Assembly: GCF_009689005.1 (NCBI RefSeq) | Contig: NZ_AP021879.1 | Coordinates: 2,542,001-2,606,000 of the forward strand | Direction of reading: 5' to 3' | DNA: 64,000 nt | Source of the DNA: Desulfosarcina ovata subsp. ovata | Lineage (GTDB): Bacteria; Desulfobacterota; Desulfobacteria; Desulfobacterales; Desulfosarcinaceae | Part shown: positions 16,095 through 59,393 of the stretch, piece after piece | Numbering within the stretch: the stretch's first letter is position 1 | Layout of the letters: each line of letters starts with the position of its first letter | The notes under the pieces: model-generated | What the model was told of the DNA's origin: nothing | The model's input: only the letters and a program-made list of their open reading frames with translations | Databases searched by the model: none | Translations under genes and position numbers: made by a program

Positions 16095-16212
16095 GACAAG
16101 AAAATCGTTTTCGCACCTTTCTTTGTCAGGCTTGTCTTTCGGGCGGGCCTTTTTTATTGGTCCGCCGCCGTGCCCCCCTTTTTTATTGAACCCGCTGAAC
16201 AAGGGGATCCCC

Positions 16213-42390: not shown

Positions 42391-42452
42391 AAGGGCCATG
42401 AAAGGTTCCCGTTTTTAGTAAATGCGGATGTAGGGAACCGCCATGGCCCTTT
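42391..42452 (-). terminator. Terminator of the TonB-receptor transcript
   Basis: AAGGGCCATG (42391-42400) pairs with CATGGCCCTT (42442-42451), and inside GGTTCCC (42404-42410) pairs with GGGAACC (42433-42439). On the minus strand it is followed by TTGTTTTTTG. It lies 11 bases after the receptor stop. A degenerate copy follows the receptor remnant at 30046-30186. Confidence 0.85.
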
Positions 42453-42462
42453 TCGCGCGTGG

Positions 42463-44499
42463 TTAGAAGGTATATTTAAACGACACGCCAATCAAATAAT
42501 TGAATTCAGGAAGGTAATCGTCGATATCCGTTGTAGAACGGTCGTTGAAAATATTGAAAAACTCCCCTTTAACCTCGATCATTTTATTGAACAGAAAGGC
42601 GATGGATGCCGTATGATACCAGTAATCGCCCACTTCCTCGGTTACGGTTGTCCGCCCCCAACTGCTGCTGGTCCACGATCCGCGATAGCGGGCCGCATAG
42701 GAACCGTAAGTTCGACAACAGTCGGCAACCGGCAGGTTGAAGCGCAGGCCGATGGCAGCACTGTTGCGGGGATACCCGTCTAAGATCGCATTCGTGTTGT
42801 TGTCCCGGGTTTCGTTGTAGTTGTAATTGATAAATGGGGTCAGTCCGCTCGAGATGTCGTAGGAGAGTTCGACGTCCACCCCCTTGATCTCCACCTCATC
42901 CACATTTTCCGGTTGCATGATCTGGCCGCCATCGTTGAGCGGATCATCATAACGCACGCTGGTGATAAAATCGTCGGCCTTGGAAAAATAGGGCGTCACC
43001 CGGACAAAGAAGGCGTCATCAAACAGGCGTTGTTCGACCGATGCCTGGTAGGCCCACACGGTTTCAGCATCAAGATCCGGGTTTCCCTGGTACACGATAA
43101 ACGAAGAGATTGACCACGGCACGGAATAGAGCTGGCTCAGGGAGGGAGCTTTGAAGCCCTTTCCGGCGGAAAGCTTGATATTACCGCCGGGGATATAGTT
43201 CCAGCGGATGGCGGCCTTGGGTGAAAATTCGTTTCCATAGGAATCGTAATCGTCAAATCGCCCGCCGAGAACCAGTTCCAGGGTATCGAAAAAAGTACCG
43301 TCCCACTGGGCGTAAAACGAATACTGAGTCTCATCCTCGTCCGTCACATCTCCTTCCCTGCCCTGAACATCGAGTATCGCTCCCGTGTCCGCATCCACTA
43401 TTTTCTTTTCTACGGAGAAATAGGAGATCTCGGCCCCCAGGGTCAGAATCTGCTGGTCGGCAAAGGTCCAGCTGGTATTGAGATCGCCATGGTAGCGGTC
43501 CGCCACGGTGTCGTTCAAGGATTCCTTGTACACAAAGTTGGGAATGGTGGCGTATCCCGTGTTGATCCAGTTGATCGTTTCCAGGGTTTCGCCGGAATAG
43601 TTGTGCTCGGACCGCAGCCAGTCCGCCTGGGCCTTGAGGATCCACCGATCCGACAGGAAGCTTTCCAGTTGCGCGTTCACGTACGGGTGCTTGATATCCT
43701 GATGGCAATAGACACCCAGATTGTCGCCCACGCCGTATTGGGTCTCGCCATCCACGGTACCACCGGAAATCGCGATGTTGGTCTTGTCACCAAGGGTACC
43801 GGTGAGCTTGGCGTGAAAACGGTCGTGATCATAATCCCGGTTTTCCGTATCGACGCCTTTATCTTCGTAAAGCATGTAGTTGTCCACTTCCTTATGATCG
43901 TAAAAAATTCCCAATGAAAAATTTCCGAAATTCAGGCCGGCGTCCAGCCCATAATCGTAGCGATCAAAGTTGCCCGCATCACCCCAGGGTTGAATGTAGT
44001 TTTGACCGCCACCGTCCTTGGTGATGATGTTGATGATGCCGCCCCCTGCCGAGGAGCCGTAAAGCGCCGAATAGGGACCCCGAAGCACCTCGATCCGATC
44101 CACGGCCCGCACCGGCAGGGTAGTCAAATAGGCGTAATCGGTAAAGGGCGTGTTGACCTTCTGGCCATCCATGAGGACCAGGGTGTGCCCTGCCGATCCC
44201 AGTCCGCTGATGGTCATGGATTGGGGCGTCACCAGTCCGACCCCCTGCGGTTCGTTGACATAGACGCCGGGAAGGTTGGCGAGAAGGTCGCCGACGGTCC
44301 GGGCCGGGGTCTGCTGAATCTCCTCCTGGCTGATAACCGTGACCACGGCCGGTACCTTTTCTAGGTCTTTTTCGGTTTTGGTGGCGGTCACGATCACGGG
44401 CTCCAATTTGGTCGGCTCGCTGGTGGCATGGACGCGCGGCGCCCCGAAACAAGACAGCGACAACACGAAGACCGGTACAAAAATCCATTTCTGCTTCAT
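42463..44499 (-). CDS. TonB-dependent outer-membrane receptor (BtuB-like)
   Basis: 678 residues. A signal peptide (MKQKWIFVPVFVLSLSCFGAPRVHA) is followed by a TonB box-like start of the mature protein (LEPVIVTATKTE), a plug domain (about residues 45-160, with VDRIEVLRGPYSALYGSSAGGGIINIITK) and a 22-strand barrel ending in FKYTF. The C-terminal aromatic residue is typical of outer-membrane proteins. It should import a cobalamin-, haem- or metal-chelate-sized ligand with TonB energy. It is the last gene of the minus-strand arm of the chelatase locus and ends at a strong terminator. AAAGGGGATTGAAG precedes the start. Confidence 0.9.
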   Translation of the reverse strand: MKQKWIFVPVFVLSLSCFGAPRVHATSEPTKLEPVIVTATKTEKDLEKVPAVVTVISQEEIQQTPARTVGDLLANLPGVYVNEPQGVGLVTPQSMTISGLGSAGHTLVLMDGQKVNTPFTDYAYLTTLPVRAVDRIEVLRGPYSALYGSSAGGGIINIITKDGGGQNYIQPWGDAGNFDRYDYGLDAGLNFGNFSLGIFYDHKEVDNYMLYEDKGVDTENRDYDHDRFHAKLTGTLGDKTNIAISGGTVDGETQYGVGDNLGVYCHQDIKHPYVNAQLESFLSDRWILKAQADWLRSEHNYSGETLETINWINTGYATIPNFVYKESLNDTVADRYHGDLNTSWTFADQQILTLGAEISYFSVEKKIVDADTGAILDVQGREGDVTDEDETQYSFYAQWDGTFFDTLELVLGGRFDDYDSYGNEFSPKAAIRWNYIPGGNIKLSAGKGFKAPSLSQLYSVPWSISSFIVYQGNPDLDAETVWAYQASVEQRLFDDAFFVRVTPYFSKADDFITSVRYDDPLNDGGQIMQPENVDEVEIKGVDVELSYDISSGLTPFINYNYNETRDNNTNAILDGYPRNSAAIGLRFNLPVADCCRTYGSYAARYRGSWTSSSWGRTTVTEEVGDYWYHTASIAFLFNKMIEVKGEFFNIFNDRSTTDIDDYLPEFNYLIGVSFKYTF

Positions 44500-44611
44500 C
44501 TTCAATCCCCTTTTCTGGTTGGTCATGGGCCGTTTTTCATCCGATGGCCTTCGCTGCCGACGTGGCCCGGTCCTTTCGATAAGTTTGTTTTCCTTTTTCT
44601 AAAATGGCGCT

Positions 44612-45973
44612 TCATGCGCCTTTTGTCTGCATCTGCAACCTCACCCGCCGGTGGGCCAGGGCGTCTGCCACGCGCTGATCGTGGGTGGCGACCAGTGCCG
44701 CGCCACCGCCTTCGATGTGCCGGGAAAGTCTTGCCAGCACCAGCGCCAGGCTCCGATCGTCAAGGCCTACCGACGGTTCGTCAAGCAACATCAGTTTCGG
44801 CCGGCGGGCGCAGGCGGCAGCGATGGTAACGCGCCGCTTTTGTCCCATGGAGAGGGAGCGAGGGTGCCGGTCGGCCAAAGCCAACAGGTCCAGGTCGCGC
44901 ATTTCACGATCGGCCGCCGCCCATCCGTTTGACTGGGCAGCCACCTCATCCGTCACGGTGGTCAGGTAAAGCTGATGGTCAGGCTGCTGGAAAATATAGG
45001 CCGCCTGTTCGGCGATCCGGGCGGGGGGCTCTTTGGAAGGGTCCAGCGCACAGGTCCGAACGGTGCCTTGCGAGGGTTTCAGCAGTCCCATGGCCAGGCG
45101 GAAGAGGGTCGTCTTCCCGCATCCGTTGTTTCCCAATAGCGCCACACTCTCGCCGGCACGCACCGCAAAGGATAGGCCGGTGAACAGTTGCCGCGAATCC
45201 CCCGGCCAGGCAAAAGCGACATCGTCAAAGGCCAGCAGGGTTTCGCCGGCCGATCCTTCCGGCATGACCGCAAAGCGCGAAACCGATTCCGGTGCGTCGT
45301 CCCAGCGGCCACCGGTCATGTACAATTCCGTCGAGGCCACGGAACGGAGCATGTCCCGGCGGTGCTCGAAGACCAGCACCGTACGGCCGGATTGGGCGAT
45401 TTCCGTCAGAATCGCAAGCAGCCGTCGTTGGGCCTGCCGGTCGAGAAAAGCCAATGGTTCGTCCAGGACCAGTACGCGCTGATCCAGGGCCAGAAGGGCG
45501 GCCATCAGCACCCGTTGGCGTTCACCGGACGAAAGCGTCACGATTTTTCGATGCCGCAAATGGGCCGCCTCGACACGATCCAGCGCCCCTTGAATCAGGG
45601 CGTCCATGCGGTCCGGCTCGACGGCGAAGTTTTCCAGACCAAAGGCGATCTCGTCATCGACCTTTTCCGTGAAGGTCATGAACTCGACGTTCTGGAGGAG
45701 AAGCCCCAGATCCCGGGCCGTCTCCCGGACCGCCCGCCGGTCCGGACGCTGGCCGCAAACGTTCAAATCCCCATCCAGCGAACCGGCAATCAAATGAGGA
45801 ATGGCGCCGCACAAGGCCATCCCCAGTGTCGATTTGCCGCATCCCGTGGGCCCCGATATGAGAGCGATCTCACCGGGCCCCACATCCAGATCCAGGCCGG
45901 CCAAGGCATCTTCGCCGCGGCCCGGGTATCGGAACCGCATGCGCGAAGCCCGGATCAAGGCCGCCCTCCCCAT
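44612..45973 (-). CDS. ECF transporter, fused double ATPase (A component)
   Basis: 453 residues with two ABC domains in one chain: the first has Walker A GPTGCGKST, signature LSSGERQRV and Walker B VLVLDEPLAFLD; the second has GNNGCGKTT, LSMGQKRRV and LMLLDEPSVGLDD. ECF A1 and A2 are usually separate; the fused form resembles YkoD-like proteins. It energises the T and S components encoded just upstream. Its start overlaps the stop of the T-component gene by 19 bases. Confidence 0.88.
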   Translation of the reverse strand: MGRAALIRASRMRFRYPGRGEDALAGLDLDVGPGEIALISGPTGCGKSTLGMALCGAIPHLIAGSLDGDLNVCGQRPDRRAVRETARDLGLLLQNVEFMTFTEKVDDEIAFGLENFAVEPDRMDALIQGALDRVEAAHLRHRKIVTLSSGERQRVLMAALLALDQRVLVLDEPLAFLDRQAQRRLLAILTEIAQSGRTVLVFEHRRDMLRSVASTELYMTGGRWDDAPESVSRFAVMPEGSAGETLLAFDDVAFAWPGDSRQLFTGLSFAVRAGESVALLGNNGCGKTTLFRLAMGLLKPSQGTVRTCALDPSKEPPARIAEQAAYIFQQPDHQLYLTTVTDEVAAQSNGWAAADREMRDLDLLALADRHPRSLSMGQKRRVTIAAACARRPKLMLLDEPSVGLDDRSLALVLARLSRHIEGGGAALVATHDQRVADALAHRRVRLQMQTKGA

Positions 45974-46662
45974 TGAATGCCCGCCGCCAGCAGGCAGACG
46001 ACGGCCGCAAGGGCCAAATAGACGGCGTCACCGCGCTTAAACCGGGGCAGCGCATAGCAGGAGCGCCTGGCACCGGGATTAAACCCACGGATTTCAAGGG
46101 CCAAAGCGATCTTGTCACTGTACTCAACCACGGCAAAGGCAAGGGGAACCATCGATCCGCGGTAAAAACGCATCCAGACGCCACCCATGCGCCTGCCCCG
46201 AAGAAGCGCCGCCTGCCGCATCTCCCTGACCTCGGCGGCCATGACCGGAAAAAACCGCCAGACCAGGAGCAGGGAAACAATCAGTCCCGGGGGCAAATGA
46301 ACCCGGGTCAGGGCACGGACCATCTCCTGGGGCGCGGTGGTTGCCGCCATGACCGGAACCGCAGCCATGAAAACCGCAAGGCGCAGGCAATAGGCCAAGG
46401 CATGGGCATGATCATCGCTGGCCGAGAAATTCAAGGCGGCAAAAATGGTAAAAAAGATCAGCAGGCCCAGCCATCGACGAGCGGAAATGCGCACGCCGGC
46501 CATACCGGCAACGCAAAGGAGAAACGCCAGGAGGATAAACAGCGCCACCGGGTCCACCAGGATAAGCGCATACACGGTCACGCCCATCCCCACCGCCATC
46601 TTGGAAAACGGATGCAGGCGATGGACGGCGGTCTCTCGGGCCGATGGGAATGCGCCGATCAC
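45955..46662 (-). CDS. ECF transporter T component (CbiQ/EcfT family)
   Basis: 235 residues with about five or six membrane helices and the paired coupling motifs typical of EcfT (ALLRGRRMGG and ALEIRGFNPG), which bind the two ATPase domains. The N-terminus is short and the first helix begins near residue 20. It connects the substrate-binding S subunit (46666-47307) with the fused ATPase. It starts three bases after the S gene stops. Substrate specificity lies in the S subunit, so it is not defined here. Confidence 0.85.
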   Translation of the reverse strand: MIGAFPSARETAVHRLHPFSKMAVGMGVTVYALILVDPVALFILLAFLLCVAGMAGVRISARRWLGLLIFFTIFAALNFSASDDHAHALAYCLRLAVFMAAVPVMAATTAPQEMVRALTRVHLPPGLIVSLLLVWRFFPVMAAEVREMRQAALLRGRRMGGVWMRFYRGSMVPLAFAVVEYSDKIALALEIRGFNPGARRSCYALPRFKRGDAVYLALAAVVCLLAAGIQWGGRP

Positions 46663-46665: not shown

Positions 46666-47307
46666 TCACTTTTCCAGGCGCAGCTTTCCCGCCATGGAAA
46701 GCTCTTTGGCCACCTTGAGACCGGCCATTGCTCCGGCAAGGCTGGTACAGAAAATTGCTGCCTCGGCGACGATAAAGACCCACCAGGCGATCCCGGAATA
46801 GCGGTCGGGCAAGAAGAAAAAGGAGAGGAGCATGGCGGCCGGAAACATCCCCATTTCGTACAGCACCGCACCGGCCACCGGGGCGATTTTTCCCCTGTAT
46901 CCGCGAAACAGCAGGCTGCAGACGACTTCCCCGAAAAGCCCGCCGCAAAGCACGAACCCGAAAATGATCGGCGATACCATCAGGCAGATCAGGGAGTAGA
47001 TGCCGGTAATCAGGATCAGCGATCCCGGCCGGCGCAGCCGCGCCAGCCCGATGACCACGAAAAAAGAGCCGAAAAGGCCGTTGACCGCATTGGCCAGCCC
47101 GGGAATGCGCAGGGGCAAGGTGAAGGGGATGACCACACTGGCCACCACCAGCAGTGCGGCGGCGATCATGGCGGCGAACACGTATTCGCGGGTCTCCCAA
47201 TAGGTCTTCCGGGACGTGGGTTTCACTGCCGATAGAGCGCCCGGCCCGGATGGCGCGGCTGCCGGCGGACTGCCGGCCGGCTCGGTCAAAGCGGTTGCAT
47301 CTCTCAC
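46666..47307 (-). CDS. ECF transporter S component
   Basis: 213 residues. After about 35 Pro/Ala-rich residues come five or six helices (YVFAAMIAAALLVVASVVIPF, LFGSFFVVIGLARL, GSLILITGIYSLICLMVSPI, VLYEMGMFPAAMLLSFFFL, GIAWWVFIVAEAAIFC). The GTG start overlaps the CobN stop as GTGA, so the two are coupled. The S subunit determines substrate. The family resembles the MptD-like or general ECF S group; context suggests a metal, tetrapyrrole precursor or vitamin. The long extension upstream of the GTG is the CobN gene in another frame. Confidence 0.82.
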   Translation of the reverse strand: MRDATALTEPAGSPPAAAPSGPGALSAVKPTSRKTYWETREYVFAAMIAAALLVVASVVIPFTLPLRIPGLANAVNGLFGSFFVVIGLARLRRPGSLILITGIYSLICLMVSPIIFGFVLCGGLFGEVVCSLLFRGYRGKIAPVAGAVLYEMGMFPAAMLLSFFFLPDRYSGIAWWVFIVAEAAIFCTSLAGAMAGLKVAKELSMAGKLRLEK

Positions 47308-50300
47308 GGCTCCATCCTTTCTTCGATCATGCCTTCGAGTTCCATGTAGCGATCCATGAGCAGTTGTTTTTCCGTTTCCGTGGGATTCCAATAGTCCCGC
47401 TTTTCCGCCTCCAGCAGGCGTTTGATCATCGACTCCACGGCAAACCGGTTGTTTGCACACATGCGGGCGAACATCTCAGAATCGGCGATGTAACGCTCGG
47501 TCACCTTGGACCAGATCCAGTTTTCCACGGCGTGGGTGGTGGCGGCGAAACCGATCAGGTATTCCACACGGTCGCTGATCTTCTGGGCACCGTGATAATC
47601 GTGGGCCAGCAGTCCGTCGATCCATCGGGGATTGAGCAGACGGGACCGGATCCCCCGGTTCAGGGACTCGCCCACGGTCTCGGTAAGCAGGATCTCCTTG
47701 GTGGTATCGGTGATCAGCATGGCAGGCGCCCGGCCTTTCACCGATTCAACGGTCCGGGAGAGGCCGCCGAAGAATTCGTAGTAGTGGTCCAGATCCATGA
47801 TCTCGTATTCGTGGGTATCCCGGACCTGGCTGACCAGATCCACGCTGGCGAGACGATGCCGGTAGGCATCCAGGCAGCGCTGGCCATGCAGGTTATCCGC
47901 ATAGAGATGACTCATCGTGGCCGTGAAAAGATCGCTGATCTCCGTTTCGCTGGTCCAGGCCCCGGTTTCGATCAGTCCGGTGGTCCGCGTGCCGTACTCT
48001 CCCGGCCTGGGCCCGAACACCCGGCCGCGGGCAATCCGGTCCAGCTGTTCCGGAGCGACCGAACCCTCCAGCCGCGCCTTCATGGCCCGGGTGTTTTTGC
48101 GGACGAAATTCTTGTCCTCGGACTCGTCCAGTTCCGCCACCAGGTCCACGGCGCGGTTGATCATGGACAGGACCGTGGGGAACATATCGCGAAAAAACCC
48201 GCAGATCTGCACCATGCAGTCCACCCGGGGACGCCCCAGTTCCTCGAGGGGCACCGCTTCGAGCTTTTTGTAGTAGGGGTTGGAATCGTGGCGTACTCGG
48301 ACCCCAAGATAGGCCAGAATCTGCCCTACGGTCTCTCCCCGGGTTTTGGTGGTTTCGAATCCCCAGAGGATCACCGCCGTACTGTCCGGGTAGGCACCGT
48401 TCAAGGCGTAATAATGGGCCAGGGTGTTGTCGGCGATTTCCCACCCCCGCCGGCAGGCCTCTTCCGAAGGCACCAGCCGGGGATCGAACTGGTACGAATT
48501 GCGACCGGTCGGAAGTACTTCCGGCGTGCGCAGGGGGTCGCCGCCCAGGCCGGGCGCGATATATTTTCCGGAAAGACCGGCCAGGAAATTCTCAATCTCC
48601 AAATCCCCGCCGAGGTTTTTGGCGGCGGTGATGGCCTGTAAAACGGCGCTGCGTTCGGGCTCTGTCCCGGGCAGGCAGTCGTCTTTGCATGCCGCTTCGA
48701 CGATGGTACGGACGTTGGCATCGATCTTCTCGAGGGCACGGGGATCGACGGCATTGCCGGCCTTTCCCGGGCGGAGCAGATCCTCATAGGAAAGGCCTTG
48801 TGCTTCGCAGAGCCGGCGGTGGAGGGAAGGCGTTCGGCCCCTGTCATAACGCAGAAAAAAGGTGGCGAAATCCAGCTGCCCGTTGGCATCGATTCCTTCG
48901 CCCAGGAGATGAAGCCCCTTGGGAATGATGGCGCGCTTCATCATCGAAATCTCTTCCTGAACCGACTCCACCGTTTCGCAGGCGAAGTTGAGTTGGGCCG
49001 CCTTCTGCATGACGCGTTCGGAGAGTCTTTCGGCGCGTGCCGGTTCCAGGGTGCGCGCCTCAATGGTTTCAGCGATGAGTTGGTCCAGGGACTCGTACTC
49101 GTCGTAAAGGCCGCCGGCCGTGAATGCCGGGGAGTTGTAATTGACCAGGACCCCCAGGCTGCGCCGTTTGGCAATGGTGGCCTCGGACGCATTGACCACA
49201 TGGTAGAAGTAAAGGTGCGGCACGTTCCCCAGAAGGGATGAGGGAAAGCAGCGGCCGCTCATGCCCGTCTCCTTGCCCTTGAGAAATTCAAGGGTGCCGT
49301 GGGTACCGACGTGGACGACGCAATCCGGCCGCCAGTGTTCTTCCAGCCAGCGGTAGAAAGCCACATACTGGTGGTGGGGCGGCAGGGTCTTGTCGTGACT
49401 GATCTTGTCCGGGTCGGCATGGTACCCGCGCGCCGGCTGCAGACCCACCAGCAGATTGCCGAATTCGACCGCCGGGATCAGCAAGCGGTCATCTTCGCAC
49501 ATGATTTCGCCGGGCGGCGGCCCCCATTGGGGGGCGATCTCGTCGCCGGCCGGCAGGGTTTCCAGCAGGCCTTGGTACTGGTTGACGCTCACCATCCGGC
49601 CGTGCTTGAACGACTCCCGCACGTCTCCCCAGCGGGCCAGATTGACCAGTTGGCGGGAAAGGAAATACTCGTGCAAGCCTTGCTTCTCCGGCACGCCCGA
49701 CACGCTATAGCCACGCTCGGCCATGATACCGAATAGCTTTTTCAAGCTGGCGAACGTGTCAATATAGGCGGCATTGCCCAGGTTGTCCTCACCCGGCGGA
49801 TTGTCGTAGACAATGAAAGCGACCCGCTTTTCGCTGTTGCGTTTGCGGGAAAGGGCCGTCCATTTCCCGATCCGGCCGGCCATGTGGGCGATGCGGCCCT
49901 GAATGGGAACCACCTTTTTCACCGCCCCCTCAATTTCCGGATGAGATTGTTCCACGAGGCCGCAGGAGGGCAGCGGTTCGATCATTCCGTCGGTTTCGGG
50001 CAGGATCACCGTCGTCAACACCTCGATGGGCGACAGGCCCTGAACGGATTCGCGCCAGGCATCGATTTCCCGGCCAAACATGGGGACCCCGGAAAACACG
50101 GGCACACCCAGTTCTTTCAGGAGCGCCACGGCTTGATCCGGGGCGGCGTCGGTAAATGTGTTCAGGGAAAACCACTGCAAGTAGACCACGGCATCCACAA
50201 AAGGGGTCTGGTGATCGAAAAAATACTTTCGTATGGCCTGCATGTTGTCGGTAGCGGTGGAGAACACCGGCACGATGTTGGCCATCTGGTGCGATCTCAA

Positions 50301-51065
50301 CCACTGCGCCAGCGCCCGCGCGGGAACCACACTTTGCGAAAAATGCATCCCCCCGTAAAACAAAAGACCGACGGTGGGAAGGTCGGGGTTCCAATCAATG
50401 GACGCGACGTAGGCATCCAAATCATCGTGAGTGAATCCGGACAGCGGGTCGTAGATGCCGCAATCCGGGTATTCCCGGGGGACCGGCGGTTTGGCAATCT
50501 TGAACCCGGCATATTCCCGCCCGGCGAAGGCCAGCATGTTCTTGATGTTTTCCCCGCCCCCATGTTGCCAGTAACGCATCATGCGGGCCCAGTTGCGGGC
50601 GTGGCGGAGCTTGCCGAAGGGAAAAAGAGTTCCGCCTTTCTCGATCCAATCCATCATTCGCCGTGCGGAGCGAAGATTGAACGATTTCCCCGGACGCGAC
50701 CCCTTCCCTTTCTTCCCGGCGCGGGCCATCGCCTGCCGCATGGAAAACGATCCCAGTCGTACCAGTGACATGCATTCCGGCGAGCCACCCACCAGAAGCG
50801 CCACGGGTGTTTTCGTTTGCGCCAATGCGCCGGCGGCCACGCCCAATGCTTTTCCACCACCCCGGATATCCAGGAAAACCATGGACGCGGATATCAGTGC
50901 CGACCGGACGGCATCTGGAGAAATGGCCTCTTCTTCGATATCATGGGTTGAGAACAGACGGGCGGAAAACAGTTTGCCATGCACCTGGTAAAAGCGTTCC
51001 ACGCCTTCCAGCAGGGACTCGGTCAAGGAGGCGTTGATAATAAAGGTGAATCCGGGTCTGTTCAT
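47304..51065 (-). CDS. CobN-like chelatase, copy 1
   Basis: 1253 residues of the CobN/BchH/ChlH family of large class I chelatase subunits. The core motif HVGTHGTLEFLKGKE (coding 49318-49281) carries the His and Glu residues near the metal site, and LPPHHQYVAFYRW and YYLSRQ-like blocks precede it. In aerobic cobalamin synthesis CobN acts with CobS/CobT; related proteins insert Mg2+, Co2+ or Ni2+, and HmuS-type homologues in Bacteroidetes remove iron from haem. No signal peptide is visible. It heads an operon with ECF S, T and A and a TonB receptor. Start 51065 has AGGA upstream. Confidence 0.9.
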   Translation of the reverse strand: MNRPGFTFIINASLTESLLEGVERFYQVHGKLFSARLFSTHDIEEEAISPDAVRSALISASMVFLDIRGGGKALGVAAGALAQTKTPVALLVGGSPECMSLVRLGSFSMRQAMARAGKKGKGSRPGKSFNLRSARRMMDWIEKGGTLFPFGKLRHARNWARMMRYWQHGGGENIKNMLAFAGREYAGFKIAKPPVPREYPDCGIYDPLSGFTHDDLDAYVASIDWNPDLPTVGLLFYGGMHFSQSVVPARALAQWLRSHQMANIVPVFSTATDNMQAIRKYFFDHQTPFVDAVVYLQWFSLNTFTDAAPDQAVALLKELGVPVFSGVPMFGREIDAWRESVQGLSPIEVLTTVILPETDGMIEPLPSCGLVEQSHPEIEGAVKKVVPIQGRIAHMAGRIGKWTALSRKRNSEKRVAFIVYDNPPGEDNLGNAAYIDTFASLKKLFGIMAERGYSVSGVPEKQGLHEYFLSRQLVNLARWGDVRESFKHGRMVSVNQYQGLLETLPAGDEIAPQWGPPPGEIMCEDDRLLIPAVEFGNLLVGLQPARGYHADPDKISHDKTLPPHHQYVAFYRWLEEHWRPDCVVHVGTHGTLEFLKGKETGMSGRCFPSSLLGNVPHLYFYHVVNASEATIAKRRSLGVLVNYNSPAFTAGGLYDEYESLDQLIAETIEARTLEPARAERLSERVMQKAAQLNFACETVESVQEEISMMKRAIIPKGLHLLGEGIDANGQLDFATFFLRYDRGRTPSLHRRLCEAQGLSYEDLLRPGKAGNAVDPRALEKIDANVRTIVEAACKDDCLPGTEPERSAVLQAITAAKNLGGDLEIENFLAGLSGKYIAPGLGGDPLRTPEVLPTGRNSYQFDPRLVPSEEACRRGWEIADNTLAHYYALNGAYPDSTAVILWGFETTKTRGETVGQILAYLGVRVRHDSNPYYKKLEAVPLEELGRPRVDCMVQICGFFRDMFPTVLSMINRAVDLVAELDESEDKNFVRKNTRAMKARLEGSVAPEQLDRIARGRVFGPRPGEYGTRTTGLIETGAWTSETEISDLFTATMSHLYADNLHGQRCLDAYRHRLASVDLVSQVRDTHEYEIMDLDHYYEFFGGLSRTVESVKGRAPAMLITDTTKEILLTETVGESLNRGIRSRLLNPRWIDGLLAHDYHGAQKISDRVEYLIGFAATTHAVENWIWSKVTERYIADSEMFARMCANNRFAVESMIKRLLEAEKRDYWNPTETEKQLLMDRYMELEGMIEERMEP

Positions 51066-51082
51066 ACCGGTCCTGAAAAAAG

Positions 51083-51137
51083 AAACAGCCATGCAGCGGC
51101 CCTTTGTCCAAAGGGGCATTCGCCTTCATGGCTGTTT
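51083..51137 (-). promoter_or_regulatory. Terminator-like hairpin in the CobN leader (candidate attenuator)
   Basis: On the leader transcript CATGGCTGTTT's complement AAACAGCCATG (51127-51137 with 51083-51093) forms an 11-bp stem, with an inner CCCTTT/AAAGGG pair (51100-51105, 51110-51115). CTTTTTT follows it 16 bases before the start codon of copy 1. A terminator directly before the gene implies conditional readthrough. No known riboswitch aptamer matches. Confidence 0.65.
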
Positions 51138-51199
51138 GGTTTGATTTGTATTTTTGGGTCGATCAAAAACAGAAATGGCCTTCATGACCAATCAGACTG

Positions 51200-51229
51200 C
51201 CTATAGCAAAGTGGTGCCGGTCACGTCAA
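51200..51229 (-). promoter_or_regulatory. Putative sigma70 promoter of CobN copy 1 operon
   Basis: On the minus strand TTGACG (51229-51224) and TATAGG (51205-51200) are 18 bases apart. Transcription would start near 51193, giving a leader of about 127 bases that contains the hairpin. Confidence 0.55.
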
Positions 51230-51380
51230 GATTATATGCCCAATAAAACGCCTTGACTTCTCAACCGGACTGCATTACTGAACGGATCACGCAAGGCGGC
51301 TGAAGTCGACCTGATGATTCGATAATTTACTATAGAAGCTGTTTCGGTTCGAACGCCCTTACGGTTTTAATCGGATAGGA

Positions 51381-51443
51381 AACAAAAGGCCACGAAGGTC
51401 TCTATTCCCGACAGGGGAAAGAGCGTTCGTGGCCTTTTTGTTT
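51381..51443. terminator. Intrinsic terminator hairpin in the divergent region
   Basis: CAAAAGGCCACGAA (51383-51396) pairs with TTCGTGGCCTTTTTG (51426-51440), with T-rich sequence on both sides. It resembles the receptor terminators at 42391 and 30046 in layout (CCATG/CCACG stem, CCC/GGG inner pair). It is likely the terminator of a vanished TonB-receptor gene. A further short inverted pair GCGACAT/ATGTCGC is at 51495-51514. Confidence 0.7.
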
Positions 51444-51590: not shown

Positions 51591-52052
51591 GTGGGAGTTT
51601 CTATTGAGTATCATGACAATATCGACGAAGCCACGATGAAGGGCATTGAATCGGAATTCTCTCTCGATCTCGCCGAAAACCACCGCATCTCAGCCACGCT
51701 GACCTATATGGAGGCGACCAACGATGAAACGGGCGATCGCTTGGAGAGAAGTCCGCACTGGCTGGGGTCCATTGCCTATACCTACGATCAGTCGTTCGAT
51801 CGTTTCCGCTTCTGGACGACCCTCAGGGGCCGTGGCCAGGATGATATCTATATCGGCGAATACAGCGTGGATGAACCCCGCGAAGTGTCCGGTTTTTTTG
51901 TCTGGGATCTCTCCCTGGGTTTGGATATCGGAACGCATGTGAGTCTGTTCGCCAATGGAACCAATCTGTTCGATTCGGATTACCGCGAGTTCACCTATAC
52001 GCGCTATCAGCCCGGCCGGGTGTTCCTGATTGGCTGTGAATTCAAAATATAG
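51591..52052 (+). pseudogene. 5'-truncated TonB-dependent receptor (C-terminal barrel only)
   Basis: About 154 codons of barrel strands (GIESEFSLDLAENHRISATL, RLERSPHWLGSIAYTYDQSF, VSLFANGTNLFDSDYREFTY), ending in a family-type FKI terminus at 52052. There is no signal peptide, plug or upstream strands; the frame meets a stop near 51567. It ends nine bases before the second CobN gene, so a full receptor gene once headed the plus-strand operon. The sequence differs from the receptor at 42463. Confidence 0.88.
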
Positions 52053-52060: not shown

Positions 52061-55000
52061 ATGGAGAAAATCGCCGAGACTGGAAGCAACCAAATAAAAA
52101 TCGGCATATTGCTGGCGCCCTTCGGGCCGGCACGGGGAATCATGGCCCTCACCTATGGCCGGGCCGTGGAGCAGTTGAAAGAGACCGGCCTGGCCCTCGA
52201 GGTGCGTATCGACAACATGGCCGGTGCCGATCAAACCGCCGTGGACCCGGATCCCGCGTTCATCGAGTGGCTTGATGACGATGCCGACATGGTCCTGGCG
52301 CACGTTCCGGCGGCCTACGATGCCGTCTTCACCCAATTGCAGGCGCTTCATCAGAAAACCGGCAAGCCCGTGATCCCCTTGAGCCCGGAGTGCGCGTCCA
52401 TTGCCGGGGGGATCGACCGGCAAACCGTTAAGACCCTGTGGGCCTATCATGGCAACGGCGGGATGACCAATGTGCGCAATCTGCTGCGCTTTGCGATCCA
52501 TGTCAGCGGGTTGGGCCCGGATGACACGCCGCCGCCCCCCGAGGAGATGCCCCTTTGCGGGATCTATCATCCGGAGAGCCTTGAAAGCTTTGACAGTCTG
52601 GACGCCTACCGCCAGTGGCGGCCCCCGAAAGCGGGCGCGCCCACGGTGGGTCTTTTTTTTCCCCGCTCCTACTGGATCGATAATGCCCTGGCCGTATTCG
52701 ATGCGTTGATCGGAAAACTGGAAGCAGATGGCGTGAATGTCATTGCCGTGTTCAACGACAAGTTCAAAAGCGGCGGGGATGACGCGGTCATCGAGAAGTT
52801 CTTCATCGCGGACGGCACGGCCTGTGTGGACGCCGTGATTTATCAGGCCTACTTCTTCTTGAAATCGAGCCGCGAGAAAGACGGCGCCGGCATCCACCAG
52901 GAGGCGTCAAAAATCCTGGAACGGTTGAACGTGCCGGCCCTTTTAATGATCAATAGTTTGCAGACCCAGGCGGAATACGAGCAGAGCGCCGAGGGGCTCA
53001 CCATCCCCCAGTCCATCATCACCGTGGCCCTGCCCGAGTTCAACGGCATCGGCCAGCCGGTGCTGGTGGGGGTGTCCGAAGCCCATATCGACCCGACCAC
53101 CGGTGCCAAGGTCATGCGGCCGATCCCCTTGGACGCCCAGATCAGCTACCTGGTCAGGCGGGTGCGCAAGTGGTGCGCCCTGCGGGAAAAACCCAACTCC
53201 CGGAAGAAGATCGCCATCATCCTGCACAACTCGCCCTGCCGCAGCGGCGTGGAGGCGACCGTGGGCGCCGGTTTCGGTCTGGACACCCTGGAAAGCGTGG
53301 CTCTGTTGCTGCAGCGCATGCAGCGCGAAGGCTACGAGCTGGACTGGGTCCCCGAAAGCGGCAGGGAATTGATCGAAACCATCCTCGAGAAAAAGGCCAT
53401 CAGCGAGTTTCGCTGGACGCCCCTTTCCGAGATCATTCAGAAAGGCGGTGCCGCCGGGTTTGTGCCCTTGTCGCGCTACGGGCAGTGGCTGGAAGAACTG
53501 CCCGAGTCCTCACGATCAACGCTGTTTCAAGGATGGGGCAACCCCTTTGAGACCGACATAGAAGAGCTGGAAGACCTCCAGCGATCGAGCCTGGCCCTGC
53601 ATGATGGCTGCATCACCATCCCGGGGCTGATGCTGGGCAATGTTTTCATCGGTCTGCAGCCCAAACGGGGGTGCGCCGGCGCACGCTGTGACGGCAGTGT
53701 GTGCAAGATTCTCCACGACCCGGAAGTGCCGCCGCCGCACCAATACCTGGCCTTTTACAAATGGATCGAAAAGGATTTCGGTGCCGATGCCATGCTCCAT
53801 GTGGGCACCCACGGCAATATCGAACTGCTGCCGGGCAAGTCCGTGGGCCTGTCGCCGGCCTGCTTTTCCCACTTTGCCGTAGGCTCGCTGCCCCACCTGT
53901 ACATCTACGTGGTCAGCAACCCCATGGAAGGCTCCATTGCCAAGCGGCGTGGCCTGGCGGTGATCGTGGATCATCTCCACCCGGTCATGGCCACGGTCAA
54001 GCTCTACGGTCCCCTGGAAGATCTGGAAGATCCCCTGGAAGAGTATGCGCGGGCCAGGGCCGCCCATGAAAGGGGACGTCTCAAGGAACTGGAAACCATC
54101 ATCAGCGAAAAGGCCCAACAGGCAGCCATCGTTAAAACCGCCGGGCAGTTCGATGATTTCCACGCCTTTGTGGACTACCTGCACGGCCAGATGACCATGC
54201 TTCGCGAAACCATGTTCCGGGACGGGCTGCACACCCTGGGCCAGCCGCCGGTTGATGACCAGTTGATCAGCATGCTGGCCTCGATCCTGCGCTTCGATCA
54301 GGGGCAGGTGCCCTCGATGCGGCGCTGGATCATCGAGTCGCTGGGACTGGATTGGGACAAGGTGCTGAAAACGCCCGAACGGGTCGATCCGCGTCTGGAC
54401 CGCACCCACGCCCGCCTCCTGGAACTGGCCGACGATGCGGCCCAACAGATCATTGGGGACGCGCTGCAACATTATCCGGACCAAAGCGATTCGATCGTCT
54501 CCTCGGCGGTTCAAACCGTTCAGGCGCTTTACGGCATCGACGTGTCAACCATGCCGGCCGATCGAACACAGGCGCTGATGGATATCGTTGAATTCGGCAT
54601 GGGGCTGGTCCCGGCCATCGCGCAGACCACAGACGAGATCGACAATCTCATTCGTGGATTAAGCGGTGAGTTCATTCCGCCGGGGGCGTCGGGCGCCCTG
54701 GCCAGGGGCAAGGTGGAAACCCTGCCCACGGGCAGGAACTTCTTTTCCATCGATCCGTTCAAGATCCCCACGCCGGCCGCCTGGAACGTGGGCATCCGGC
54801 TGACGGAGACCTTCTTCCACAAATATCTGCACGAACACGGCGACTACCCGGAATCCATCGGTTTCGTCTTCCGCTTCTTCGATATCTTTCGTGCCGACGG
54901 CGAACAGCTGGCCCAGATGCTGTACACCCTGGGCGTCAAGCCGGTTTGGGACGGCAGCCGGATTACCCGGCTGGAGGTGATTCCCCTGGAAACGCTCCAG

Positions 55001-55999
55001 CGACCCCGGGTCGACATCACCGTGCAACTCTCCAACATGCTCAGGGACGGCTGCCCGCGCGCCTTTGAACTGGTGGACGAGGCGGTCCAGCTGGTGGCCG
55101 ACCTGGACGAGCCGCCGGAGAAGAACTTCGTCCGAAAGCACGTCCGGCAGCGACTACAGGAAATGGCCCCCCAGGACGATCTCAAGGCCCAAAAGCGCAT
55201 GGCCACGTTCCGCGTCTTCACGGCGGCCCCCGGCGTGTACGACTATGGCGCCAATACGGCCGTGGCCGCGTCGGCCTGGGAGACCGAAGACGACCTGGCC
55301 GATATTTTCATCGACACCTGCCACTATGCCTACGGCAAGGGCAGCTTCGGCGTGGCGGCCAAGCAGACGTTCACCGCCAATCTGAAGCACGTCAGCGTCA
55401 CCTATGACAAGTGGGATTCGGATGAATACGATATCCTGGAATGCTGCCACATCTTCGGCAGCCACGGCGGTTTCACCCAGGCCGTCAAAACCGTGTCCGG
55501 CAAAGAGGTCGACGTCTATTTCGGCGACACCCATGATCCGGATCGACCCCGCATCCGCGACATGGCCGATGAACTGGACCGCGTCGCGCGCACGCGTCTG
55601 TTGAATCCCGCGTGGGTCGAGAGCAAAAAACAGCACGGGTACAAGGGTGCCACGGTCATGGCGGACCGCATCTACCACATCTACGGGTGGCAGGCCACCA
55701 CCCGGCTGGTGGGCAACTGGGTGTTCGACGACATCGCCCGGACGTTCGCCCTGGATGAGGAAATGCGACGCTGGTTCGAGGCCAACAACCCGTACGCCCT
55801 GGAGAGCATCACCCGCCGTTTGATCGAGGCCGAACAACGATCGTTATGGCAGGCCGATCCAGAGCTGTTGGAGCAGCTCAGGGAAGTTTTCCTGGAGGTG
55901 GAAGGCTGGATGGAAGATCGCATGGAAGATGTCACCAGCGATTTTCAGGGCAGCGATATCGATATTGTCAAGATCGATCAATACAAAGTGGCCAGGTAA
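52061..55999 (+). CDS. CobN-like chelatase, copy 2
   Basis: 1312 residues of the CobN/BchH/ChlH family, with the motif HVGTHGNIELLPGKSVGLS near residue 580. It has its own N-terminal region with CGIYHPESLES-like and LRFAIHVSGLG blocks, and shares family landmarks with copy 1 (TGRNFFSIDPFKIP, PEKNFVRKHVRQ, LLNPAWVESKKQHGYKGATV) but is clearly diverged, so it may act on another metal or tetrapyrrole. Head of the plus-strand operon with an importer and ChlID. AGGTG precedes the start; the TAA stop overlaps the next ATG. Confidence 0.92.
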   Translation: MEKIAETGSNQIKIGILLAPFGPARGIMALTYGRAVEQLKETGLALEVRIDNMAGADQTAVDPDPAFIEWLDDDADMVLAHVPAAYDAVFTQLQALHQKTGKPVIPLSPECASIAGGIDRQTVKTLWAYHGNGGMTNVRNLLRFAIHVSGLGPDDTPPPPEEMPLCGIYHPESLESFDSLDAYRQWRPPKAGAPTVGLFFPRSYWIDNALAVFDALIGKLEADGVNVIAVFNDKFKSGGDDAVIEKFFIADGTACVDAVIYQAYFFLKSSREKDGAGIHQEASKILERLNVPALLMINSLQTQAEYEQSAEGLTIPQSIITVALPEFNGIGQPVLVGVSEAHIDPTTGAKVMRPIPLDAQISYLVRRVRKWCALREKPNSRKKIAIILHNSPCRSGVEATVGAGFGLDTLESVALLLQRMQREGYELDWVPESGRELIETILEKKAISEFRWTPLSEIIQKGGAAGFVPLSRYGQWLEELPESSRSTLFQGWGNPFETDIEELEDLQRSSLALHDGCITIPGLMLGNVFIGLQPKRGCAGARCDGSVCKILHDPEVPPPHQYLAFYKWIEKDFGADAMLHVGTHGNIELLPGKSVGLSPACFSHFAVGSLPHLYIYVVSNPMEGSIAKRRGLAVIVDHLHPVMATVKLYGPLEDLEDPLEEYARARAAHERGRLKELETIISEKAQQAAIVKTAGQFDDFHAFVDYLHGQMTMLRETMFRDGLHTLGQPPVDDQLISMLASILRFDQGQVPSMRRWIIESLGLDWDKVLKTPERVDPRLDRTHARLLELADDAAQQIIGDALQHYPDQSDSIVSSAVQTVQALYGIDVSTMPADRTQALMDIVEFGMGLVPAIAQTTDEIDNLIRGLSGEFIPPGASGALARGKVETLPTGRNFFSIDPFKIPTPAAWNVGIRLTETFFHKYLHEHGDYPESIGFVFRFFDIFRADGEQLAQMLYTLGVKPVWDGSRITRLEVIPLETLQRPRVDITVQLSNMLRDGCPRAFELVDEAVQLVADLDEPPEKNFVRKHVRQRLQEMAPQDDLKAQKRMATFRVFTAAPGVYDYGANTAVAASAWETEDDLADIFIDTCHYAYGKGSFGVAAKQTFTANLKHVSVTYDKWDSDEYDILECCHIFGSHGGFTQAVKTVSGKEVDVYFGDTHDPDRPRIRDMADELDRVARTRLLNPAWVESKKQHGYKGATVMADRIYHIYGWQATTRLVGNWVFDDIARTFALDEEMRRWFEANNPYALESITRRLIEAEQRSLWQADPELLEQLREVFLEVEGWMEDRMEDVTSDFQGSDIDIVKIDQYKVAR

Positions 56000-56955
56000 T
56001 GGGACCCTATATTCTCAAACGCATGGGTGCCATGGGCATGGTGCTTTTCGTGGTTTCGGTGTTTACCTTTTTTCTCATCCACATGGCCCCTGGCGATCCG
56101 CGCATCATGATGGCCATGTCCCGCTTCGGCAACGACATTACCCCCGAGCAGATCGAATGGATCGGCAAGGAGATGGGACTGTCGGCGCCCGTTCATGTTC
56201 AGTATGTCATCTGGCTGGGCCACCTCTTCTCCGGTGATCTGGGCAATTCCATCCGCAGCGACCAGAGCGTCGTCTCGGAGCTGTTGAACCGCCTGCCGGC
56301 CACGCTGACGCTGGGCCTGAGCGGATTTGCCATCTCCCTTCTCATCGCCCTGCCCCTGGGCATCGTGGCGGCCATCAAGCAGAATTCCATGGTGGATCAT
56401 GCGGTGATGGTGGGAAGCATTGTGTTCATCTCCATTCCCGGATTCTGGCTGGCCCTGCTGCTGATCCTGCTCTTTTCGGTCAACTGGGGTCTTTTGCCGG
56501 TCTGCGGCCAGGGCACGGCGGCCCACATGGTGCTGCCGGTCACCGTTCTGGCCCTGGGCATGGCCGCCACCACCACCCGCCTGACCCGGACCTGCATGCT
56601 CGAAGTGCTGCGTCAGGACTACATACTGGCCGCCCGGGGCAAGGGACTGCCCGAGAAGTCGGTCATCTGGCGGCATGCCCTGAGAAATGCCATGGTTCCC
56701 ATCGCCACTTACAGCGGCATCAAGCTGGCGCGCACCTTTCAGGTGGCGGTGATCGTGGAAACGGTCTTCGCCTGGGAAGGGATCGGCAAGTTGATGGTGG
56801 ATTCCTGTTTCGCCAGGGATTTTCCCATGATCCAGGGATGCGTGCTGCTGGTCGGCGCGGTTTTTGTTCTCACCAACTTTGCCGTGGACATGCTGTACCT
56901 GTACCTGAATCCCCGAATCCGGTTGCTGTCGGAAAAACAAGGGAGTCCTGCCTGA
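55999..56955 (+). CDS. Dpp/Nik-type ABC permease, first subunit
   Basis: 318 residues with six helices. It has the family N-terminus YILKRMGAMGMVLFVVSVFTFFLIHMAPGDP and the cytoplasmic loop YILAARGKGLPEKSVIWRHALRNAMVP, which docks onto the ATPases. The ATG overlaps the CobN stop (TAATG). Family members import peptides, nickel, or opine-type metal chelates. With the second permease, the two ATPases and the binding protein below it makes a complete importer. Confidence 0.9.
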   Translation: MGPYILKRMGAMGMVLFVVSVFTFFLIHMAPGDPRIMMAMSRFGNDITPEQIEWIGKEMGLSAPVHVQYVIWLGHLFSGDLGNSIRSDQSVVSELLNRLPATLTLGLSGFAISLLIALPLGIVAAIKQNSMVDHAVMVGSIVFISIPGFWLALLLILLFSVNWGLLPVCGQGTAAHMVLPVTVLALGMAATTTRLTRTCMLEVLRQDYILAARGKGLPEKSVIWRHALRNAMVPIATYSGIKLARTFQVAVIVETVFAWEGIGKLMVDSCFARDFPMIQGCVLLVGAVFVLTNFAVDMLYLYLNPRIRLLSEKQGSPA

Positions 56956-57824
56956 TGATCAGAGCGGTAATCGACGACAGGAAGGCCAGGATCGGCCTGG
57001 TTATCCTGGTGGTCCTGACTGTAGCGGCGCTATTTGCCCCGCTGCTGGCCCCCCAGGATCCCTATGCGCAGCATATCGACCGGCGCCTTCAAGGGCCGTC
57101 AGCCGATTTTCCGCTGGGCACCGACTATCTGGGACGCTGCGTATTGAGCCGGATTATCTTCGGCAGCCGCATCTCCCTTCAGATCGCCGCGCTCATCGTG
57201 GGCATTCAGGTGGCCTTGGGACTGGGCCTGGGGGCGCTGGCCGGCTATTTCGGCGGCCTGGCGGACGGATTGATCATGCGTCTGGTGGACGTGATGATGG
57301 CCCTGCCCTCCCTGGCCCTGGCCCTGGTGCTGGCCGGCATCATGGGACCGGGCCCGGCCGGGATCACGGCGGCCCTGTGCATCACGGGCTGGTCCGAATA
57401 CGCCCGCATCGTCCGCGGCGATATTCTGGCGCTCAAGGAAAAAGAGTTCATCAAAAGCGCCCGGGCGTTCGGTTTTTCCGACCTCTACATTCTGCGGCGT
57501 CACGTGATCCCCAATATCCTCGCCCCGGTCATCGTGCTGGCCACCCTGTCGACCGGGTTCGTGATTCTGCTGGTGGCGGCCTTCGGTTTCCTTGGTTTGG
57601 GCTCCCAGCCCCCGCTGGCCGATTGGGGGGTGATGCTGAGCGAGGGCCGGGCCTATATGCGCAGCGCCCCCCACCTGACCGTTTTCCCCGGGCTGGCGGT
57701 CATGGCGGCCACGTTTGGATTCAACCTGTTGGGCGATGCCCTGAGGGATGCCATGGATCCGCGATTCAAGATCAACTTTTTTTCCAGGAGCCTGTATGCG
57801 GTTAATCGACATTCAGAATCTTGA
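56955..57824 (+). CDS. Dpp/Nik-type ABC permease, second subunit
   Basis: 289 residues with about six helices and the DppC/NikC pattern: DPYAQHIDRRLQGPSADFPLGTDYLGRC after the first helix, ALPSLALALVLAGIMG and the loop FIKSARAFGFSDLYILRRHVIPN. The start overlaps the previous stop (TGATG). The order permease-permease-ATPase-ATPase-binding protein is unusual only in having the binding protein last. Confidence 0.9.
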   Translation: MIRAVIDDRKARIGLVILVVLTVAALFAPLLAPQDPYAQHIDRRLQGPSADFPLGTDYLGRCVLSRIIFGSRISLQIAALIVGIQVALGLGLGALAGYFGGLADGLIMRLVDVMMALPSLALALVLAGIMGPGPAGITAALCITGWSEYARIVRGDILALKEKEFIKSARAFGFSDLYILRRHVIPNILAPVIVLATLSTGFVILLVAAFGFLGLGSQPPLADWGVMLSEGRAYMRSAPHLTVFPGLAVMAATFGFNLLGDALRDAMDPRFKINFFSRSLYAVNRHSES

Positions 57825-58617
57825 AACCCGCTTCGATACGGAAAATGGTCCGGTAGCCGCCGTAAACGGCGTCAGCCTGAGCGTCGATCGCGGCTGCCGG
57901 CACGCCGTGATCGGCCAGAGCGGTGCGGGCAAATCCATCCTGGCCTTGTCGATCCTGCGCCTTTTGCCGGATAACGCCCGGATCCGCGGCGAGGTATTTT
58001 TCAAGGGCCGGGAGCTGTTATCCTGCTCGATGGAGGCCATGCGCGAAATCCGGGGCAAGGCCATCATGATGATTTTCCAGAACCCTTTGGCCACCTTGAA
58101 TCCGGTGTTGGATCTGGGCACCCAGCTGTGCGAGATTCCCATGTGCCATGAAGGCGTCACCTACGCGCAGGCCAGGCAACGGGCGCTCGAGGCCTTGACC
58201 CTCTGCGAGCTGCCCGATCCCGAGCGGGTGATGCAATCCTACCCGTTCCAGCTCAGTGGCGGCATGTTGCAGCGCGTCGCCATCGCCATGGGCATCATCT
58301 GCCGCCCCGACCTGTTGATTGCCGACGAACCGTTCAAGGGGCTCGACGCCCGGCTTCAACAACAGGTCGGCGCCACCCTCTACCGGATCTGCCAGACCTT
58401 TTCGATTACCTTGCTCCTGATCACCCATAACCTCAAAATCGCCCACAGCCTTTGCGATCGGGTATCGGTCATGGTCGGCGGCCGCATCGTCGAGACCGCC
58501 GCCACCGAGTCGTTTTTCGCTTGCCCGGATCACGCCTATTCAAAACGCCTGGTCGAGGCGTACGATCTGTTCTCATCAGCGATCGAAAGCGCCCCGGAAA
58601 GGCGGTGCGCCCCATGA
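57796..58617 (+). CDS. Dpp/Nik-type ABC importer ATPase 1
   Basis: 273 residues. Walker A is GQSGAGKSI, the signature is LSGGMLQRV, Walker B is LLIADEPFKGLD, and the switch His is in LLITHNLK. Walker B reads FKGLD where most family members have TTALD, a modest substitution. The short C-terminus lacks the extended zinc or iron-sulfur region of DppD proteins. It overlaps the permease by 29 bases. It pairs with the second ATPase to drive import. Confidence 0.88.
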   Translation: MRLIDIQNLETRFDTENGPVAAVNGVSLSVDRGCRHAVIGQSGAGKSILALSILRLLPDNARIRGEVFFKGRELLSCSMEAMREIRGKAIMMIFQNPLATLNPVLDLGTQLCEIPMCHEGVTYAQARQRALEALTLCELPDPERVMQSYPFQLSGGMLQRVAIAMGIICRPDLLIADEPFKGLDARLQQQVGATLYRICQTFSITLLLITHNLKIAHSLCDRVSVMVGGRIVETAATESFFACPDHAYSKRLVEAYDLFSSAIESAPERRCAP

Positions 58618-59393
58618 TAAACGTGCGCCACCTGAGCAAGCATTATACGTCGGGCATCGTGAACAAACGTCTCACCCGGGCCGTGGACGGGGTAAACCTG
58701 TCGGTTCCCAAGGGCAGCGTCTTTGGACTGACCGGCGAGAGCGGATGCGGAAAGACCACCCTGGCCATGCTGATCCTGCGGCTGGTCGAGCCCACCGCAG
58801 GGTCCATCACGATCGACGGCAAGGATATCACCCGCCTGGGCAAACGCGCCCTCAACCGGCTGCGGCCCGATTATCAGATCATCTGGCAGAACCCGGACAC
58901 CTCGCTGAGCCCGCGCCTCCCATTGAAGGACAGCATCATGGAGCCGCTGCGCTATTACGCCAGGGTCAGGCGCAAGGATGAAGCGGCGATCCTCTCGCGC
59001 TGCTGCAAGATGGCCGAATTGCCCGAGTCCCTGCTCGGCCGCTATCCCCACGAAGTCAGCGGCGGAGAGAACCAGCGGGCGGTAATCACCCGCCTGTTGA
59101 CCCTGCGTCCCACGCTGCTGATCGCCGATGAACCCACATCCTCCCTGGATGTTCTGGTTCAGGCGCAGATTCTCGAACTGCTCAAACGGATCCAGAAACA
59201 ACTGGCCTTTACCATGCTCTTTATTTCCCACGACCTTCAGGCCATTGGCTTCATGTGTGATCGGGTGGCGGTAATGAGAAATGGTAAGATCATCGAAAGC
59301 GGCGCCTGCGGCCAGGTGCTTTCGGCGCCCCGTACCCCCTACTGCCGTGAACTTGTCGATAATGCGTTTCGCCCCTGGAGATTTGCATCATGA
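58614..59393 (+). CDS. Dpp/Nik-type ABC importer ATPase 2
   Basis: 259 residues. Walker A GESGCGKTT, signature VSGGENQRAVI, Walker B LLIADEPTSSLDV and FISHDLQAI. The start overlaps the preceding stop (ATGA), and the gene overlaps the binding protein gene the same way. Standard DppF/NikE layout. Confidence 0.9.
   Translation: MINVRHLSKHYTSGIVNKRLTRAVDGVNLSVPKGSVFGLTGESGCGKTTLAMLILRLVEPTAGSITIDGKDITRLGKRALNRLRPDYQIIWQNPDTSLSPRLPLKDSIMEPLRYYARVRRKDEAAILSRCCKMAELPESLLGRYPHEVSGGENQRAVITRLLTLRPTLLIADEPTSSLDVLVQAQILELLKRIQKQLAFTMLFISHDLQAIGFMCDRVAVMRNGKIIESGACGQVLSAPRTPYCRELVDNAFRPWRFAS

Follow-up and report, generated by a model that had tools for sequence, protein, structure and literature searches.

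A probable family of transcription attenuators preceding nickel/cobalt uptake genes in Desulfosarcina ovata and many other bacteria

The two cobN loci and their leaders

The window, the whole 64,000-nt stretch of the Desulfosarcina ovata subsp. ovata genome analysed here, contains two copies of cobN on opposite strands. Copy 1, a member of the CobN/Mg-chelatase H family (PF02514, 1087.5 bits), is the first gene downstream of the leader under study and occupies 47304..51065 on the minus strand. Downstream of it on this strand lie genes for a CbiQ-like protein (45955-46662), a double ABC ATPase (44612-45973), and a TonB receptor (42463-44526). A weak model match on the opposite strand just past the TonB receptor gene (42391-42452, +; 20.2 bits) is probably the ordinary terminator of the TonB receptor operon. 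Copy 2 lies at 52061..55999 (+); behind it come genes for two permeases of the Opp/Nik type, a pair of ABC ATPases, an SBP_bac_5 protein, and a ChlI/VWA protein (55846-63108, +). CobN genes are expanded in this genome, with 19 matches that group into 14 loci, three of which are fragmentary (near 3199782, 6407351, and 6424872); the leader upstream of the fragment at 6424872 presumably resembles a cobalamin riboswitch.

The cobN copy 1 leader begins with a probable promoter at 51201..51229 (-), in which TTGACG (51229-51224) and CTATAG (51206-51201) are separated by 17 nt. A promoter here had been proposed in a first-pass annotation of the sequence; by eye it is plausible, but a simple promoter scan does not list the TTGACG/CTATAG pair. 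The gene is taken to start at the ATG at 51065, which is preceded by AGGA. The list of open reading frames also offers an in-frame ATG at 51119, within the hairpin described below; judged by the ribosome-binding sequence, 51065 appears to be the better of the two.

Upstream of the start codon lies a terminator hairpin (51083..51137, -), identified from the sequence, from folding (-27.3 kcal/mol), and with a covariance model. Its outer stem consists of 11 perfect pairs, AAACAGCCATG (51137-51127) with CATGGCTGTTT (51093-51083), and encloses a nested hairpin; on the minus strand the stem is followed by a C and then six U residues (51081-51076), read from the sequence as the U-tract (51076..51081). 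The nested 11-bp hairpin and U-tract of the first-pass annotation are therefore present in the sequence, at a distance from stem to start codon of 17 bases rather than the 16 first given. The leader also contains two small hairpins with similar loops. The first, P1 (UGGUC-AUGAA-GGCCA, 51176..51190, -; -4.7 kcal/mol), scores 11.0, equal to the counting threshold of 11, on a scale that, like the threshold, was devised for this analysis. The second, P2 (GCC-AUGAA-GGC, 51123..51133, -; -3.9 kcal/mol for 51121-51135), overlaps the 5' arm of the terminator.

Folding of the minus-strand leader is weak evidence if taken alone (z -2.25, with 3 of 200 shuffles equally good). A simple terminator scan does not pick up the 11-bp stem; on this strand it reports two 5-pair hairpins where 1.4 are expected, and P1 (51190-51176) is one of the two. 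Covariance model R2 scores the element at 41.9 bits (E 5.6e-10 in 226 kb), having been built from 90 elements that include this one. The reality of the hairpin is argued from the comparative evidence, that is, the genome-wide pattern counts given below and the R2 score, which is strong where the folding of the single leader is weak.

A twin terminator hairpin precedes the cobN copy 2 operon at 51384..51438 (+), with 51.8 bits to model R2 and a leader z of -6.86. It contains a P2 read from sequence and folding (GGCC-ACGAA-GGUC, 51388..51400, +), and upstream of it lies a probable P1 (CGGC-UGAA-GUCG, 51297..51308, +) whose score of 9.5 is under the counting threshold. The stretch from the twin element to cobN copy 2 includes, at 51591-52052 (+), what looks like a truncated TonB receptor gene, coding for a C-terminal part of the barrel (PF00593, profile 318-436). 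A third similar hairpin is found before another cobN locus of the same genome. The twin, the upstream P1, the overlap of P2 with the terminator, and the genome-wide regulon all go beyond the first-pass annotation.

Distribution of the element

The pattern GCCAYGAAGG-N(12-42)-CRTGGC has 16 matches in the genome, compared with one for the pattern read backwards; on visual inspection, 11 of these 16 resemble U-tract-bearing leader hairpins. A first covariance model, built from ten pattern-picked elements, matches 20 distinct places in the genome (E<=1; 30 rows, 10 of which are the same palindromes on the opposite strand) and is matched by 44 of 60 near genomes, the source genome included (E<=0.01). 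With a second model, 83 of 247 genomes of the phylum matched at E<=1e-4, again including the source genome; this model also matched 19 of 196 genomes in the class of G319, a genome that was itself chosen for having the element; G319 is Alkalibaculum sporogenes by its locus, and its class is taken to be Clostridia. The second model also matched 22 of 23 genomes from an exact-pattern scan, all chosen for having a pattern match. That scan, of named genomes, gave at least 119 stretches. Hosts among the matches listed (80 of at least 119) include Desulfosarcina cetonica, Desulfobacter vibrioformis, Thermovorax subterraneus, Carboxydocella thermautotrophica, and Extibacter muris; some matches, for example in Legionella and Brucella, are without P1 and by eye look coding-like.

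For comparison of the elements, 108 leaders were assembled: 20 from the source genome, 29 best-per-genome loci, and 59 of 60 stretches chosen among the matches listed (L119 was dropped because it overlaps L118 and L120). Several are orthologous, and 99 are left at 90% identity; 90 of these form alignment A4, from which L050, L052, L055, L118, L122, L129, L136, L151, and L152 were excluded. The first-pass proposal stands with respect to conservation, the absence of which would have spoken against it: the element recurs in many genomes. The cobN copy 1 attenuator is apparently one of a large, undescribed family, and no description of such a family was found in the open-licence PMC literature searched.

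The elements of the source genome are unevenly placed, with 8 of the 20 lying within about 90 kb (3020527-3111555) that also holds many metal-uptake genes. One element of this region precedes an HU-family gene.

The terminator and the competing P2 hairpin

The terminator stem is conserved as a structure. In the ten pattern-picked elements, columns 9-51 form CG in five and UA in five, with no mismatches even though the pattern permitted them. In the 90 aligned elements, 91.7% of the cells of the stem are paired and 65 cells carry two-sided changes, compared with 16.4 in shuffles (0 of 500 as high) and at most 19 in slid versions; these figures are biased in favour of the stem, since the model used to find the A4 elements already includes it. 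The first-pass claim that a terminator must be bypassed for expression thus gains support at the level of structure, from conservation across genomes and from compensating changes.

The conserved core of the element, GCC-AYGAA-GGY, can also fold on itself as P2. Because P2 overlaps the 5' arm of the terminator, only one of the two structures can exist at one time. The third pair of P2 (columns 5-15) is kept as GC, GU, or AU in 89 of 90 elements, the fourth pair is present in 49, and the fifth in 41. Support from covariation is mixed, in columns that double as terminator columns. Three of five measures lie above the shuffles, namely paired cells (0 of 500 shuffles as high), two-sided cells (2 of 500), and covariation score (0 of 500); the other two, the count of pairs changed on both sides and the count of pair types, are at shuffle level (457 and 117 of 500 as high). 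In the five elements that have A at column 5, T is found at both columns 15 and 55 (5/5), so that P2 and the terminator vary together there. By calculated folding energy P2 is weak, at a median of -4.0 kcal/mol, compared with about -27 kcal/mol for the full element, and the terminator is therefore likely to be the default state. An attenuator of the intrinsic-terminator type has a U-tract terminator before the start and an alternative structure that excludes it; both can be drawn here as structures, with mixed statistics for P2.

An upstream hairpin with a GAA loop

P1, which was not used in finding the elements, can be defined as a hairpin with a loop ending in GAA upstream of the terminator. 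It is present in 77 of 108 leaders at a score of at least 11; the remaining 31, for example L036 and L046, have no P1 over the threshold. When all 64 possible loop endings are compared, the median is 1 of 108 leaders and the best ending other than GAA reaches 5. Shuffled leaders give a mean of 1.8 and a maximum of 4, the reverse strand gives 1, and in the 130 nt 3' of the element such a hairpin is found in 7 of 108 cases. Of 67 further terminator-like hairpins in the same DNA, 2 have a P1, and one of these 2 sits at a family element. P1 also recurs in the sets found later: 15 of 19 elements in the class of G319, 16 of 28 in the phylum, and 14 of 29 in other groups (13 of 28 without L351, which duplicates the L324 element), while the best other loop ending reaches at most 3 in each set. 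For these counts a 29-nt match (L370) was excluded, and L320 and L347, which were read at the wrong position, were scored as misses.

The loop of P1 has 4-5 bases and is TGAA, AGAA, CGAA, ACGAA, or ATGAA in 68 of the 77 hairpins, and the closing pair is C-G in 57; the stem is free in sequence and 4 to 9 bp long. The distance from P1 to the modelled element ranges from 9 to 114 nt (median 37 nt). By these sequence comparisons P1 is a conserved structure.

Genes behind the element

First downstream ORFs were picked mechanically and were obtained for 106 of 108 loci in the first set and 64 of 76 in the later sets. The 106 ORFs include TonB plug (21), DUF4198, which we take to be NikK-like (19), DUF3842 (8), FecCD (7), DUF6802 (6), and Peripla_BP_2 (4), and more rarely SBP_bac_5, CobN, FmdE, and TrmO (2 each) and CbiM (1). 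Among the 64 ORFs are CbiM (13), ECF S components (9), TonB plug (7), SBP_bac_5 (6), methyltransferases (6), and two CobN, which are probably one because of a duplicate locus. LarE, which makes a nickel cofactor, is found above the curated NCBIfam cut-off in 3 of 10 proteins tested (L341, L342, and L355). The downstream genes are thus mostly for metal uptake (TonB receptors, DUF4198, CbiM, ECF S components, NikA-like proteins, and LarE), and some, such as the HU family, have no obvious metal role. NikK and NikMQO are described as nickel transport proteins in PMC545781 and PMC2667541. Gene content of the DUF4198, LarE, and NikMQO kind points to nickel rather than cobalt as the signal, with cobalt being possible.

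Comparison with known regulatory systems

At the gathering cut-off, the sole Rfam match in the whole window is a TPP riboswitch at 15999-16106 (+; 75.6 bits), with no match to a cobalamin or NiCo riboswitch. At relaxed cut-offs, nothing relevant was found in the cobN copy 1 leader (E<=5) or in eight related loci (E<=1); the chance matches were DnaX (52078-52100) and, in L031, a microRNA family. The first-pass impression that the leader resembles no known riboswitch is borne out by these searches. The NiCo riboswitch, whose model is included in Rfam 15 and was among those without a match, is like the element in being tied to nickel/cobalt genes and in using transcription attenuation; however, it serves metal efflux genes, whereas the element precedes uptake genes. 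Cobalamin riboswitches precede cobalt and CobN-type genes, a position that the element shares, but their covariance model gave no match in the window, the leader, or the eight related loci.

In delta-proteobacteria, genes for the uptake of nickel, nikMQO and nikK among them, are under the control of NikR (PMC545781). The element shares this kind of gene, but NikR acts at a DNA operator and the element is apparently an RNA attenuator. With up to 2 mismatches allowed, none of the 108 leaders has the NikR operator, GTGTTAC-N13/14-GTAACAC; when 4 are allowed there are 6 matches (8 in reversed orientation), compared with 16 in a backwards control. CsrA sites and phage boxB were also considered and were set aside on visual inspection.

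A model for regulation

It is reasonably probable, judging from the comparisons above, that this leader serves a nickel/cobalt-uptake regulon as a transcription attenuator, one that terminates by default and is opened by a factor acting on P1 and P2. Transcription would start near 51195 on the minus strand, and RNA polymerase would first make P1, the small hairpin with its (N)NGAA loop. The 5' arm of the terminator would come next and would transiently fold as P2, whose loop (AYGAA) matches that of P1. In the default course the terminator, being the stronger structure, would then displace P2, and transcription would end ahead of cobN. Under metal shortage, a factor acting in trans, most probably a protein that binds RNA as a dimer, would hold the GAA loops of P1 and P2, keeping P2 folded and blocking the terminator, so that cobN and the transporter genes are transcribed; with enough metal, the factor would release P1 and P2. 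The opposite sign, in which the factor departs at low metal, is an alternative. Conservation of the terminator and of P1, the possible competition from P2, and the metal-uptake context come directly from the sequence comparisons, and we infer from them the act of termination, the protein nature of the factor, antitermination, and a shortage of nickel (or cobalt) as the signal. As a structure, the attenuator is well supported by these comparisons.

DUF3842 is the best candidate partner of the element, because of co-occurrence. In the class of G319, DUF3842 is present in 18 of 19 genomes with the element and 51 of 177 without it (p 1.9e-8, kinship ignored; 17 of 18 when G319, picked for its element, is left out). 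For LarC, a nickel-cofactor protein taken as the control in this comparison, the counts are 12 of 19 versus 68 of 177 (p 0.049, kinship ignored). Among 60 near genomes the counts are 40 of 44 and 9 of 16 (p 0.005, kinship again ignored). In 32 genomes picked for the element or a pattern match, DUF3842 is found in 28 and is missing from G004, G307, G309, and G320. It also lies near the element, being within 2.2 kb in 7 of 18 genomes of the class of G319 that have both, and at 8 of 106 loci it is the first downstream gene.

The DUF3842 protein could be a sensor, a regulator, or a plain member of the regulon. A sharper form of the attenuator model, in which DUF3842 itself is both sensor and RNA-binding factor, agrees with this co-occurrence but is on the doubtful side. 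The AlphaFold2 model of DUF3842 (pLDDT 88.5) has a Rossmann-like, nucleotide-binding type of fold with a GGGIG loop. The best Foldseek match is an alcohol dehydrogenase (6c49, E 4.8e-4), and the best VIA-align 2 match is a lactate dehydrogenase (3pqe_C, Z 9.8, 122 residues, 3.7 A). Searches with sequence and predicted structure gave no significant RNA-binding relative, a result that speaks against no particular RNA-binding family; by sequence, ribosomal protein L1 is matched weakly and below significance (E 0.28). No paper on DUF3842 was found in the open-licence PMC literature. The four picked genomes that lack DUF3842 and the 51 in the class of G319 that have it with no detected element also argue against this form, as does the possibility that the protein is a nickel-handling target of the regulon. 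In its widest version, which we put forward tentatively, a metal- or nucleotide-sensing DUF3842 protein (or a partner) would bind the paired GAA-loop hairpins and thereby decide termination before nickel-uptake and nickel-cofactor genes, in leaders without a NikR operator, across sulfate reducers and their relatives, Clostridia, Nitrospira, and others.

Alternative explanations

Metal riboswitches exist, and the genes associated with the element, for metal uptake and synthesis of the nickel-pincer cofactor, would suit a direct riboswitch, with an aptamer made up of P1, the linker, and P2 that recognises Ni, Co, or a nickel cofactor with no protein. However, conserved sequence is scant outside the two short loops, P1 lies anywhere from 9 to 114 nt from the element, and its loop has 4 or 5 bases with the first base free. 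Two docking sites fit these properties better than one aptamer, and a direct riboswitch is unlikely.

The layout of the element is closest to that of the targets of ANTAR proteins (EutV, NasR, and AmiR), which, according to PMC3369931, consist of two small hairpins with like loops, the second over a terminator, joined by a variable linker. The element shares the dual hairpins (P1 in 77 of 108), the overlap with the terminator, and the variable linker, and the source genome has one ANTAR gene. ANTAR targets, however, have a six-base loop with A1 and G4, whereas the element has an (N)NGAA loop and precedes metal-uptake genes. Hairpins with an A1/G4 hexaloop occur at chance level, in 13 of 108 leaders (12.1 in shuffles), and two such hairpins in 0 of 108 (1.2 in shuffles). 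ANTAR genes do not track the element, being present in 31 of 44 genomes with it and 8 of 16 without it (p 0.22, kinship ignored). The element may work in the manner of an ANTAR target; that it is one, with unusual loops, is very improbable. Equally hard to credit is an ordinary, unregulated terminator or terminator-like repeat, which would explain the hairpin, the U-tract, and the dispersed copies, but not why P1 loops are kept while stems vary, why P1 is so rare at other nearby terminator-like hairpins, or why the element precedes the same kinds of genes in distant groups.

Implications of the attenuator model

The attenuator reading, in more general terms, is that a family of switches in front of nickel/cobalt uptake genes in many bacteria probably halts transcription until a factor binds two matching hairpins. 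According to PMC2667541, NikR is present in fewer than half of the organisms that have NikABCDE, and NikR-independent control has been proposed; for control of that kind over nickel uptake, the element offers a concrete candidate. The question is directly testable, given that the shape of the RNA is defined, that this genome has about 20 sites, and that a candidate partner can be named. If the model is true, many poorly annotated genes for TonB receptors, DUF4198, FecCD, and CobN-like proteins would become metal-uptake genes.

In several groups the element precedes a gene for a class I methyltransferase (L313, L323, L325, L329, L330, and L337). At two of these loci, L330 and L337 (the places of L248 and L184), translations read by eye show the methyltransferase followed by a Nik/Opp-type transporter. 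The element-linked methyltransferase genes possibly belong to a nickel-chelator pathway.
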